This document shows, piece after piece, positions 1 through 6,772 of a DNA stretch of 53,129 bases (the first letter of the stretch is position 1; each line of letters opens with the position of its first letter). The notes under the pieces are model-generated. The model was not told the DNA's origin. It searched no databases and was given only the letters and a program-made list of their open reading frames with translations. The DNA comes from Acidobacteriota bacterium (GTDB taxonomy: Bacteria > Acidobacteriota > Vicinamibacteria > Vicinamibacterales > UBA8438). A program made the position numbers and the translations under genes. Where the stretch lies: contig VXME01000033.1 in assembly GCA_009861545.1 (NCBI GenBank), positions 1 through 53,129 on the forward strand, given 5' to 3'.

Positions 1-2
1 AG

Positions 3-48
3 GGGGTCCCTTTTCAGATTGCCGCGGGGTCCCTTTTCATCTTGCCGC
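3..48. repeat. Two tandem 23-bp repeats resembling an IS end
   Basis: Positions 3-25 and 26-48 are adjacent copies of a 23-bp unit starting GGGGTCCCTTTTCA and ending TTGCCGC. They differ at two positions only. Multiple short terminal repeats with a GGGGTC...TTTTC core are typical of the ends of IS21-family elements, so this may be the inner edge of such an element lying outside the window. No transposase is visible, so the assignment is inference. The permease homology that follows begins immediately after the second copy. Confidence 0.5.
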
Positions 49-49
49 T

Positions 50-349
50 ACCAAACGCGAGCTCGAGCTCGCCATCCGCGCGGCGCTCGGCGCCGGACCG
101 TGGGCGGTCGCGGGCCTGGCGATGCGGACGGCGCTGCAACCGGCGGCGGCCGGCATTGCGCTCGGGCTCGCGGCCGCGGCCGGCGCCAGACGGATGATGG
201 CATCCGTGCTCTTCGGCGTGGGCGCGCTGGACGTCGTGACCTGGGCCGCAGCCTGCGGGGCGCTGCTCGCCGCCTGTGTGACCGCGGGATATCTACCGGC
301 GCGCCGCGCCGCGCGGATTGATCCGATGACCGCTCTGCGGGCCGAGTGA
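50..349 (+). pseudogene. C-terminal fragment of an FtsX/MacB-type ABC permease
   Basis: The frame reads TKRELELAIRAALGA, a typical FtsX-domain segment, then two hydrophobic stretches (about 122-200 and 215-290), and ends RRAARIDPMTALRAE before TGA. This is the usual end of MacB-like and ADOP permeases (compare RRAARVEPAAALRLE in the ADOP gene at 1651-4344). Only about 100 residues remain. Upstream the frame runs straight into the 23-bp tandem repeats, and no permease-like residues precede them. The gene is therefore either broken by an insertion or cut by an assembly edge at a repeat. Convergent with the gene ending at 393. Confidence 0.7.
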
Positions 350-392: not shown

Positions 393-1241
393 TCATCCAG
401 CGTGGGCGTTGCGCCGCCGGGCTGGATCGACGAGCACGACGAGCGACGAGAGTACGAGCAGGCCCGCGCCGAATGCCGCGAGATCGGCGGGCCCGATGTA
501 CCCGGCTCGCAACTGTTCCAGGATGGCGGGCACGGCAGCCGGCAGGCCGGCCACCAGCCCCGCGAAGAACAGCAGCGAGACGCCCCAACCAATTCCACGC
601 CTGCTGATCTCATCGCTCAGCCAGATGAGACACGCGGTGATCGCGGTGACGGACAGGACGAGGGTGAGTCTGAAACTCCAGCCGGGCTCGGCCACGAGCG
701 GCAACCCCTCCGGGACGACGGTCTGCTGTTCCAGCCAGATCGCGATCCCTGTCGCCTGCGCGACACCCAGCATCAGCGCGACACCCCGCACGGACCATGC
801 CATCGTCCGGCGCCCGGGGGCGCCCCGGCCACGCGCGAATCCGAGCGCGGTCGCGAGATAGGCGATGCACAGTGCCGTGACGTAGGGCATGATGCCGAGC
901 GCGAAGATCGTGCCTCCTCCGAGGTTGCCGCCGGTGAAGAGGTCGTAGAGCCCGAGCGCGCCGTGTCGGGTCACGGGTGCGAGCGCGTCGGTGTTCACGC
1001 CGGGCACGGGTACATGCGTCCCGAGCCAGTAGAGACCGATGGCCACCAGGCCCAGGAACGCCAGCGGCCGATGTTCCGCAACGTATCTTGCAGCACGTCC
1101 ACCCAGTACGCTCATCGTCTGCCTCCAGAACCACCGCGCTGACCGACCGTTTTGCCACTCTTCATACAAGTCGCCCACCAGCGGGCTGCTGGCGTCCTCC
1201 AGCCGGCCCAGGAGCCATGTTGCCAATCGGGGTGGTCTCAT
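393..1241 (-). CDS. ADOP-type prefix domain fused to an N-terminal half of SecY
   Basis: 282 residues. Residues 1-48 match the short cytoplasmic prefix found at the start of some acidobacterial permeases (RPPRLATWLL..., VGDLYEEW). From about residue 52 the protein follows SecY: GTHVPVPGVN (TM1 region), LFTGGNLGGGTIFALGIMPY (plug/TM2, residues 101-120), GVAQATGIA (TM4), and WLSDEISRRGIGWGVSLLFF (206-225), a good match to the second SecY signature, then AGLVAGLPAAV and a last hydrophobic helix (253-271). It stops where SecY would pass from TM5 to TM6, so TM6-TM10 and half of the lateral gate are absent. The start ATG overlaps the stop of the upstream PadR gene (ATGA) and has GGAAGGCGG in front. 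Its function is unknown; SecY homology is read by eye but strong. Confidence 0.75.
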   Translation of the reverse strand: MRPPRLATWLLGRLEDASSPLVGDLYEEWQNGRSARWFWRQTMSVLGGRAARYVAEHRPLAFLGLVAIGLYWLGTHVPVPGVNTDALAPVTRHGALGLYDLFTGGNLGGGTIFALGIMPYVTALCIAYLATALGFARGRGAPGRRTMAWSVRGVALMLGVAQATGIAIWLEQQTVVPEGLPLVAEPGWSFRLTLVLSVTAITACLIWLSDEISRRGIGWGVSLLFFAGLVAGLPAAVPAILEQLRAGYIGPADLAAFGAGLLVLSSLVVLVDPARRRNAHAG

Positions 1242-1573
1242 GCACGTCCGCCTTCCAGTTGCGGCAGGCCTTCCCAGAGCACGGACAGCGCCTCCCGTGT
1301 GGAGCGGGCCTCGCGCACGCCATCCGGCGTCACGCGGAAGTACCGCTTCGCGCGGCCCCCGCGTTCCGGCGTGGGCTCTCCGAGCCGGGACGTGACCAGG
1401 CCCTTGTCCTGCAAGCGCTCCAGCGCCGCGTAGACGCTGCCTATCGCGACCTCGCGGCCGGTGCCGACCTCGAGCGTGCGCGAGATCGTGACCCCGTACG
1501 CAGCATCATCCAGCCGGATGACCGCCAGCAGCACCATCAGCTCGAAGTTTCCCAGGTAGGGTCGGCCCGCCAT
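1238..1573 (-). CDS. PadR-family transcriptional regulator
   Basis: About 111 residues from the chosen ATG (MAGRPYLGNFELMVLLAV); an in-frame ATG 18 codons upstream gives a non-homologous extension. The winged-helix core is clear: AAYGVTISRTLE, IGSVYAALERLQDKGLV, and RYFRVTPDGVREAR. PadR proteins are dimeric repressors that usually control a neighbouring transporter or their own operon. Its stop overlaps the start of the half-SecY gene by four bases (ATGA), so the two are probably translationally coupled. The 77 bases upstream, before the ADOP stop, are AT-rich for this genome (ATTTTAATGAAGAAATA) and are the likely promoter/operator region. Confidence 0.85.
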   Translation of the reverse strand: MAGRPYLGNFELMVLLAVIRLDDAAYGVTISRTLEVGTGREVAIGSVYAALERLQDKGLVTSRLGEPTPERGGRAKRYFRVTPDGVREARSTREALSVLWEGLPQLEGGRA

Positions 1574-4836: not shown

Positions 4837-5047
4837 AAAAAATAACGGCGTGCGGGCCGCTGGCGCACGGTCGCGCCGGTCGAACTCCGATGCGCATGCG
4901 GGCGCCGTCGCACGGCCGGCCGTCGCGTCGCGAGCGACAGATCGTCGCCGGCGCGCAAACGGCGCAAGGGAGCGCCGGTGGCTCCGCGGAGGCGCCAAGC
5001 GGCAACAGGCCGGACGGAAACGACGCGAGCGGGGAGCGGGAGGAACT

Positions 5048-6772
5048 GTGACGAGCCTGCTGGCCGCGTTGACCGTCAAGGTGTCGGCGATCCTGTTCCT
5101 GACGCTGGCCGGCGCCCGCTGCCTCCGCGCGCGGTCGGCGTCCGCGCGGCACTGGGTGCTGGCCGTTGGCGTCCTGTCGGCGTGCGCGGCGCCCGCGCTC
5201 CACGTCCTGCCGATGCCGCCGGTGGTGCGGGTGGCGCCGGTGGAGCTGCTCGCCTGGAGTGCCGGGCCGCTGTTCGAGGCGCTCCCGCTGCGCCCCCTGG
5301 TCCCGTTCGCAGGGCCGGCAGGTCCCGGTTCGCCCGGAGCCGCGCGTGGGTCGGAGCCCGGCGGATTCCGGCCCGGCCGACCTCGACCCGCGGTAGCTCG
5401 CACGGCGTTCGCTGCCGGGGTCGGCCGGTGGGCGGTGGCGATCTGGCTGGTGGGCGCGGTGGGCAGCACCATGGTGCTCCTGGTCGGGCTGGCCAGGCTT
5501 CGCTGGCTCCGCGCGGCGTCGTGTCGTGTGACGGACGGGCCGTGGCATCGGCTGTGCGGCGACCTCGCGCGGTCGTGCGAGGTGAGACGCGGCGTCGACC
5601 TGCTGGTGGGTCCGCGTCCGGGGTTGGCGGCGACGTGGGGCTGGCGGCGGCCGGCGGTCATGCTGCCGTCGGGGGCGTTCGAGTGGTCGCCGGAGCGCAT
5701 GCGCGTCGTGCTGCTGCACGAGCTTGCCCACGCGCGCCGCGGCGACTGGCTGCTGCAGATGGCGGCCGAAGCGCTGCGCTGCGTCTGGTGGTTCAACCCG
5801 CTGGCATGGTTGGTCCGAGCCCGGCTGCGCCGCGAAAGCGAGCAGGCGGCCGACGACCTGGTGCTGGCGCAGGGCGTTCCGGCCACCACCTGCGCGACAC
5901 AGCTCGTCGAACTCGCGAGAGAGGTTCGGAAACAACGGCGGACGTGGTTGCCGGCGCCGGCGATGGCGCGTCCGTCAAACCTGGAACGGAGGTTGTCCGC
6001 CATGTTGAATTCGCACACGAATCGGCGTCCGCTGACGCGCTTCGCCCGCTTCTCGAGCCTGGGCTCGATTGTGCTGGCCTCGATCGTCGTTGCCGGCCTG
6101 CAGGTCGCCGCGCAGACGTCCCGGATCGCCGGCAACGTCGTCGACCAAGCCGGGCACGTCGTGCAGAACCCCGGCCTGACGCTCACCAACCGCGCAACCG
6201 CCGAGCAACTGCGGGTGACCGGCGACGACGCCGGCCGCTTCGAGTTCGCCGAGCTGGAACCGTCGGAGTACAGCCTCGTGGTGAGGACGCCGGGCTTCGA
6301 GAGGCTGTTTCGACGGTTCTCGCTCGAAGGGGGCGAGCAGATCGAAGAAGAGCTGGTGCTCCGCCTCGGCTCCGTCGAGGAGACCATCGTGGTGACGGAC
6401 ACGGGTGAGTCGCTGACCGCGGCCAGGACGATCAGCGCCGCCACGCGGGAGCGATACCGGCAGAACCGGACCCGGGGCGGAACCATCGCGCCACCGATCA
6501 AGATCCGGGACGTAGCCCCCGTCTACCCCGCATCAGTGCGCGGCAGCGGGTTCGAGGGCAAGATCGTTCTGGAAGCGCTGATCAGGACCGACGGGACCGT
6601 CGAGGTGCTGCAGATTCTGGCCCCGGTGGACCCGGAGACGATGACGACGGTGTACCCCGACCTGGCCCGCTCGGCGGTGGAGGCGGTCGGCGGCTGGCGC
6701 TACGAGCCGACGCTGCTGCACGAGGTGCCGGTCGACACGCGGATGACCATCAACGTGACCTTTCGCCCGTAG
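5048..6772 (+). CDS. BlaR1-like M56 metalloprotease with TonB C-terminal domain
   Basis: 574 residues from GTG at 5048, chosen because GGGAGGAAC lies just upstream; the longer frame from 4850 adds only a basic, unstructured stretch. Three helices (about 3-25, 38-58, 132-155) are followed by the zinc motif HELAH (from residue 224) and the third ligand region RRESEQAADD. A fourth helix (about 338-355) is followed by a carboxypeptidase-regulatory-like beta domain (SRIAGNVVDQAGHVV...) and a C-terminal TonB domain (KIRDVAPVYPASVRG ... GGWRYEPTLL). Family knowledge: BlaR1/MecR1 proteins sense a ligand and cleave a BlaI repressor. Here the sensor is replaced by a TonB-like domain and blaI is missing, so a non-beta-lactam signal seems likely. 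Confidence 0.85.
   Translation: MTSLLAALTVKVSAILFLTLAGARCLRARSASARHWVLAVGVLSACAAPALHVLPMPPVVRVAPVELLAWSAGPLFEALPLRPLVPFAGPAGPGSPGAARGSEPGGFRPGRPRPAVARTAFAAGVGRWAVAIWLVGAVGSTMVLLVGLARLRWLRAASCRVTDGPWHRLCGDLARSCEVRRGVDLLVGPRPGLAATWGWRRPAVMLPSGAFEWSPERMRVVLLHELAHARRGDWLLQMAAEALRCVWWFNPLAWLVRARLRRESEQAADDLVLAQGVPATTCATQLVELAREVRKQRRTWLPAPAMARPSNLERRLSAMLNSHTNRRPLTRFARFSSLGSIVLASIVVAGLQVAAQTSRIAGNVVDQAGHVVQNPGLTLTNRATAEQLRVTGDDAGRFEFAELEPSEYSLVVRTPGFERLFRRFSLEGGEQIEEELVLRLGSVEETIVVTDTGESLTAARTISAATRERYRQNRTRGGTIAPPIKIRDVAPVYPASVRGSGFEGKIVLEALIRTDGTVEVLQILAPVDPETMTTVYPDLARSAVEAVGGWRYEPTLLHEVPVDTRMTINVTFRP

Follow-up and report, generated by a model that had tools for sequence, protein, structure and literature searches.

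An N-terminal half of SecY coupled to a PadR gene in Vicinamibacterales: extent, relatives and a possible role in membrane signalling

SecY usually occurs as one full-length protein whose two halves depend on each other. For a proto-SecY, an antiparallel homodimer has been proposed (PMC8675477), and no paper on a natural half-SecY was found in a search of open PubMed Central. HAAS-PadR dyads have been described (PMC11237479) as an alternative to two-component systems: when the membrane sensor changes conformation, its cytoplasmic helical domain relays the change to a PadR protein encoded alongside. N-terminal helical domains of the HAAS type are carried by multi-TM proteins, FtsX/MacB included. 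Also, autorepression by PadR in operons with multi-spanning proteins has been shown experimentally in Listeria, where the PadR-repressed membrane proteins can be effectors (PMC6624303).

The window, i.e. the whole stretch of DNA analyzed, comprises 53,129 nucleotides from an Acidobacteriota bacterium of the order Vicinamibacterales (contig VXME01000033.1, assembly GCA_009861545.1). It holds a gene in which the N-terminal half of SecY follows a small cytoplasmic prefix, directly coupled to a padR gene.

Extent, fold and topology of the half-SecY protein

The gene and its parts are located as follows:

393..1241, minus strand: half-SecY gene (prefix plus SecY TM1-TM6), 282 aa from an ATG start, supported by the ORF, SecY profiles, orthologues and structure
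1071..1241, minus strand: soluble prefix domain of the cytoplasmic side, formed by residues 1-57 with three predicted helices (structure model; weak NF038404 match)
429..1070, minus strand: SecY-like membrane domain, TM1-TM6, residues 58-271
882..905, minus strand: FALGIMPY, the plug/lateral-gate motif of SecY TM2
429..491, minus strand: TM6 (residues 251-271), then a short basic cytoplasmic tail (RRR), with no SecY C-half beyond

The reading frame given in the initial annotation (minus strand, 282 aa, ATG start) is confirmed, and its similarity to SecY is far above chance, with significant profile matches over residues 70-270, where a missing SecY match had been named as grounds for refutation. 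PF00344 matches residues 111-277 with 85.9 bits against a cut-off of 32.2 (E=4e-24), covering profile positions 1-153 of 306, and TIGR00967 matches residues 64-243 (E=4e-30) with 105 bits, far below its equivalog cut-off of 253.6. The accessory SecY2 profile gives 46.4 bits (cut-off 353), less than the SecY profile. Residues 57-277 of the 282-aa protein are thus a genuine SecY N-terminal half. When the three closest orthologues are combined in a profile, SecY chains of known structure are matched (best chain E=4e-51), and the alignment with E. coli SecY (5abb_A, E=7e-45) extends to residue 244, through TM6; therefore the protein stops in the C4 loop, on the cytoplasmic side between TM6 and TM7, and not at the TM5/TM6 hinge, as had been supposed. 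The protein does not have the two pseudo-symmetric halves and ten TMs of SecY, since it ends after TM6 with no C-half downstream.

No remnant of a C-half was found downstream of the gene at the window locus, and a search of the window's genome with PF00344 yielded no separate C-half gene. Profile and downstream sequence scans ruled out that the locus encodes a complete SecY or that a frameshift conceals the C-half. The genome carries one ordinary full-length SecY on another contig and nothing else matching PF00344, and the half-SecY is therefore a paralogue of the normal SecY. A full SecY is present in the three genomes where one could be found (the window's genome, G000, and two genomes with orthologous units, G020 and G080). 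As a separate observation, genome G078 holds beside its normal SecY a second, very divergent SecY-like frame (L173, G078:C17 6039-6701; 449 aa, ~33% identical), which may be SecY2-like or contamination.

The AlphaFold2 model of the half-SecY (pLDDT 88, pTM 0.75) was built from 78 aligned sequences that included SecY N-halves, which biases it toward SecY, so that the fold is partly built in; a model from the four half-SecY members alone is poor (pLDDT 46). The layout comprises three prefix helices (residues 5-14, 20-30 and 35-56, within the whole-protein model), TM1, the plug-region helices and TM2-TM6. Its best PDB matches are all SecY/Sec61 (VIA Z up to 16.0, rmsd 3.4, 184 residues). Several VIA alignments extend to chain residues ~400, as if TM6 took the place of SecY's TM10, and are too uncertain to use.

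Among the SecY columns that are at least 90% conserved, 45 of 80 are kept in at least three of the four half-SecYs (the window protein and the three orthologues described below). The motifs FALGIMPY and WLSDEISRRGIGWG, already pointed out in the initial annotation, are both present, the former in all four proteins (in one with F replacing Y), and the P.PG and GG.L positions of SecY are also kept. The cytoplasmic SecY stretches KEGE.GR.KITQYTRY and GEQITERGIGNG are largely changed. K/R counts in cytoplasmic versus periplasmic loops are 9/2 (window protein), 11/3, 12/3 and 7/4. This bias, present in all four instead of the low K/R bias of dual-topology proteins, gives a single orientation, N-in/C-in.

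Orthologous units, selection and origin

Units of the same composition (padR, ATGA overlap, prefix, half-SecY, stop) occur in three other genomes, G024, G020 and G080. The additional prefix plus half-SecY proteins and the conserved PadR linkage that the initial annotation proposed to look for were thereby found, with padR overlapping by ATGA in all four units, and the orthologous loci hold half-SecY, not the full-length SecY that had been considered for close relatives. The total of four units, all from draft genomes, comes from three genera and two families of the same order, with G020 and G024 being close relatives. These two represent another genus of the window's family (~52% half-SecY protein identity, 73% for PadR), and G080 another family (41% half-SecY identity). 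The flanking genes differ, being ADOP permeases in the window and, by inspection, ferredoxin, biotin-carrier and racemase-like genes in G024 and G020; the ADOP neighbor of the window unit is missing at the orthologous loci. In the three closest members, from two genera, the frames are open with equivalent ends, and the frame is also open in the second family, where the C-terminus of the G080 protein diverges after TM5; no alignable TM6 was found in it, and no reading frame restores one.

Between G024 and G020, dN is 0.035 and dS 0.156 for half-SecY, a synonymous excess with P=3.3e-7 under neutrality, and dN/dS is 0.025/0.388 for PadR. In these genomes the half-SecY is under purifying selection. 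Because of this selection and of the three orthologous units elsewhere in the order, it is not a fresh truncation. G010, from another genus of the window's family, contains a decayed, frameshifted half-SecY fragment (G010:C200, L125 6207-6423), 60% identical to residues 205-252 and nearest to the half-SecY type (WLSD.ITRR type, WLSDAITRRRIGRG); therefore the gene has also been lost. Outside the order no half-SecY was seen among the matches listed for 193 genomes of the class and 396 sampled genomes of the phylum (best 6-12 candidates per genome), a search that could miss weak members and in which a prefix-bearing one should rank near the top.

When N-halves are placed on a tree, the four half-SecYs group together in 92% of bootstrap trees, on long, fast-evolving branches, and in the best tree they join the SecYs of the order itself (82/94). 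A position outside the order's SecYs is not rejected by the AU test (p=0.42), and diagnostic columns, only 8 in number, favor the order's SecY by 16 cells to 2. We read the half-SecY as derived, apparently recently, from a SecY of this lineage by duplication and shortening, and not as a remnant of the half-SecY that is proposed in PMC8675477 to have preceded the duplication.

The padR gene and the shared prefix domain

Upstream of the half-SecY gene the following features are found:

1238..1573, minus strand: padR gene, encoding 111 aa if read from the ATG at 1573; a GTG at 1627 may give a longer form
1238..1241, minus strand: ATGA stop/start overlap of padR and half-secY, the same in L126, L127 and L170
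1572..1596, minus strand: candidate PadR operator, a perfect inverted repeat ATTTCTT-N11-AAGAAAT that ends on the padR start codon
1651..4344, minus strand: neighboring ADOP permease (context)

The upstream gene encodes a PadR wHTH according to PF03551 (44.1 bits against a cut-off of 27, E=2e-11), and its ATGA coupling, as initially annotated, is present and conserved. TIGR03433, the profile of acidobacterial ADOP-linked PadR proteins, does not reach its cut-off of 101.8 bits, with 33.1 for the window and 40.0 for G080. At the same place of padR, G024 and G020 carry the inverted repeat ATTTCATG-N9-CATGAAAT, so that the three closest units have perfect repeats with arms of 7-8 bp at one position; each sequence, when shuffled, would contain an equally good repeat anywhere in the stretch in 2-3% of cases, and these are not three independent cases because G020 and G024 are close relatives. 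No such repeat was found at the G080 padR, and a promoter scan gave nothing above threshold.

Around the unit, the contig starts inside the end of another ADOP gene (1-349, plus strand), and directly before this end the permease sequence is interrupted by a tandem 23-nt repeat (ggggtcccttttca..ttgccgc, positions 3-48), which may mark the edge of a mobile element or of the assembly. On the other side, a plus-strand gene at 4850-6772 adjoins a divergent padR-ADOP pair; by eye its product resembles BlaR1, with the zinc motif HELAHARRGDW, and its C-terminus is TonB-like.

The prefix has the motif PP..A..LL...L.GDL.EE...GRS..W(F/Y)WRQ, and a search of 161 genomes of the order with its profile yields 25 genes, spread over 21 genomes. 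A PadR match lies near the start and on the same strand in 23 of these genes, 19 of which show the exact 4-nt padR overlap. Half-SecY is the cargo in 4 genes and an ADOP-like permease in 2; another 5 encode an enzyme of the dienelactone-hydrolase type preceded by one TM, and the other 14 encode small proteins of about 2 or 4 TMs. The prefix is thus wider in distribution than the acidobacterial permeases to which the initial annotation had confined it. In the hydrolase units (L113, L114, L115, L116 and L117, from G011, G026, G023 and G006), padR stands directly upstream of the prefix, one TM and the enzyme, and the prefix is 59-68% identical to the window's. The window's genome has a second prefix gene (G000:C126 19115-19270; L119, L177), which encodes 144 aa, the prefix plus two hydrophobic segments, and is ATGA-coupled to its own padR.

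Across 23 pairs, the identities of PadR and of the prefix show a correlation (Mantel r 0.48, 0/2000 permutations) that can result from co-inheritance alone. Moreover, the padR tree places the window's padR beside the hydrolase units (82% identity) and apart from the other half-SecY units (73%), while the half-SecY membrane parts form one group; this shows that PadR and prefix remain paired as the membrane cargo is exchanged. By these comparisons, the prefix-PadR pair is a reusable module with differing cargoes.

Permease prefix domain 2 of ADOP transporters (NF038404) has the pattern PP..A..LL..GDL.EE..W.WR(Q/E) in common with the half-SecY prefix, with scores of 13.2 bits for the window, 13-15 for half-SecY prefixes in general and 15-27 for relatives, all below the cut-off of 35. 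The half-SecY prefix model matches an ADOP-length gene in G160 (E=8e-9), and an ADOP in L124 bears a related prefix. Identity of the prefix with HAAS or permease prefix 1 is unsupported: the 25 prefixes have no column corresponding to the GxP motif of HAAS, and the profile of permease prefix 1, taken as HAAS representative from the FtsX/MacB example in PMC11237479, shows no similarity (hhalign probability 1.4%).

Proposed function and comparison with known systems

The best explanation, to which we give a probability of about 0.5 and which develops the PadR-controlled membrane sensor suggested in the initial annotation, is an autoregulated two-gene dyad of PadR and a membrane protein, with the half-SecY as the membrane-sensing domain. 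PadR would silence the operon by binding the inverted repeat at the padR start codon. The second gene would yield an N-in/C-in membrane protein made of the cytoplasmic prefix and the SecY N-domain plus TM6, the prefix being the dedicated partner of its PadR. A trigger at the membrane part, e.g. an altered lipid state or the binding of a Sec component or of a segment that is hydrophobic or resembles a signal peptide, would cause a change that passes through the prefix to PadR; PadR would then leave the operator, and the operon, perhaps with other genes, would be switched on. In this scheme, we infer PadR binding, the prefix-PadR contact and the direction of signalling, and as stimulus the lipid state, a Sec partner or a helix resembling a signal peptide would fit the retained SecY surfaces. 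The explanation is favored by the four units kept in differing neighborhoods, the purifying selection, the PadR-prefix pairing across cargoes, the inverted repeats at the three closest padR genes and the published PadR operons and dyads; the missing GxP motif and the divergent G080 member, at whose padR no such repeat was found, speak against it. PadR could alternatively do no more than keep in check a membrane protein whose target lies elsewhere.

The strongest rival has the half-SecY as effector and PadR as a conditional switch, so that the half-SecY, once PadR allows its synthesis, would bind Sec partners (SecE, a face of the SecY C-half, YidC or signal peptides) and block, spare or remodel the normal SecYEG. 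The 45 of 80 conserved SecY columns that are kept, including the FALGIMPY gate/plug motif of TM2, P.PG and GG.L, argue for it, together with the full SecY alongside in G000, G020 and G080 and the precedent of PadR-repressed membrane proteins acting as effectors (PMC6624303). However, the prefix and its own PadR are common to unrelated cargoes, suggesting that signalling is the common function, and the cytoplasmic SecY positions (KEGE.GR.KITQYTRY; GEQITERGIGNG) are largely altered, and this reading is considered less likely than the sensor.

A stand-alone protein-handling device, in which the half-SecY alone or as a dimer would be an insertase or channel like proto-SecY, appears very improbable. 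It would make use of the retained N-half fold and TM2/TM5 motifs, and an antiparallel homodimer is the form proposed for proto-SecY (PMC8675477). Nonetheless, such a dimer, also envisaged in the initial annotation, is unlikely here because the K/R counts (9/2, 11/3, 12/3, 7/4) fix one orientation, inverting a subunit would put its cytoplasmic prefix, carried by every copy, on the wrong face of the membrane and the additional TM6 breaks the two-fold design; the branches are also long and fast-evolving, and the best tree puts the clade among the order's SecYs. Equally improbable is a truncated relic, in which a PadR/prefix gene would have taken over a SecY duplicate that is now degenerating. The frameshifted fragment in G010 (L125 6207-6423), the fast evolution of the four copies and their patchy distribution would agree with it, but the open frames and equivalent ends of the three closest members, the open frame in the second family, the purifying selection (P=3.3e-7), the conserved ATGA coupling and the lack of C-half remnants downstream do not, and conservation has already largely refuted it. 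The half-SecY thus has the appearance of a genuine protein of membrane signalling that is being maintained, and not of a broken gene.

A conserved, regulated gene for the N-domain only shows that this half of SecY can be maintained on its own, and it offers a natural test object for the role of each half and for ideas of an ancestral half-size SecY. Also, as part of a signalling dyad, it would extend PadR/membrane-domain signalling to a translocon-derived cargo. Rather unlikely, the half-SecY would be a free-standing receptor (or mini-insertase) for hydrophobic or signal-peptide-like segments or Sec components, reporting via PadR with no need of the C-half; if so, half of the universal translocon would have been re-used as a natural, functional single-domain SecY.

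Compared with SecY (PF00344, TIGR00967), the half-SecY has homologous sequence and fold, equal TM order and orientation and the plug/TM2 motif, whereas it lacks the C-terminal half with TM7-10 and the C4/C5 loops, carries a fused N-terminal prefix, is padR-coupled and stands beside a normal SecY. Operons of the LltR-Lmo0600 type in Listeria (PMC6624303) likewise join an autorepressing PadR and a multi-spanning membrane protein; in this case the cargo differs, with no SecY part in the Listeria operons. Finally, the HAAS-PadR dyad (DUF1700-type), as given in the available part of PMC11237479, combines a small cytoplasmic helical N-terminal domain, varied multi-TM modules and a stand-alone PadR neighbor, as here; such a PadR wHTH neighbor is found in 4 of 4 half-SecY units and 23 of 25 prefix genes, and the FtsX/MacB example of that text resembles ADOP. 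SecY is not among the cargoes named there, and unlike HAAS, the prefix has neither GxP nor profile similarity to permease prefix 1. For these last two reasons the unit is not filed as HAAS, and it is described as one that would work like a HAAS dyad.
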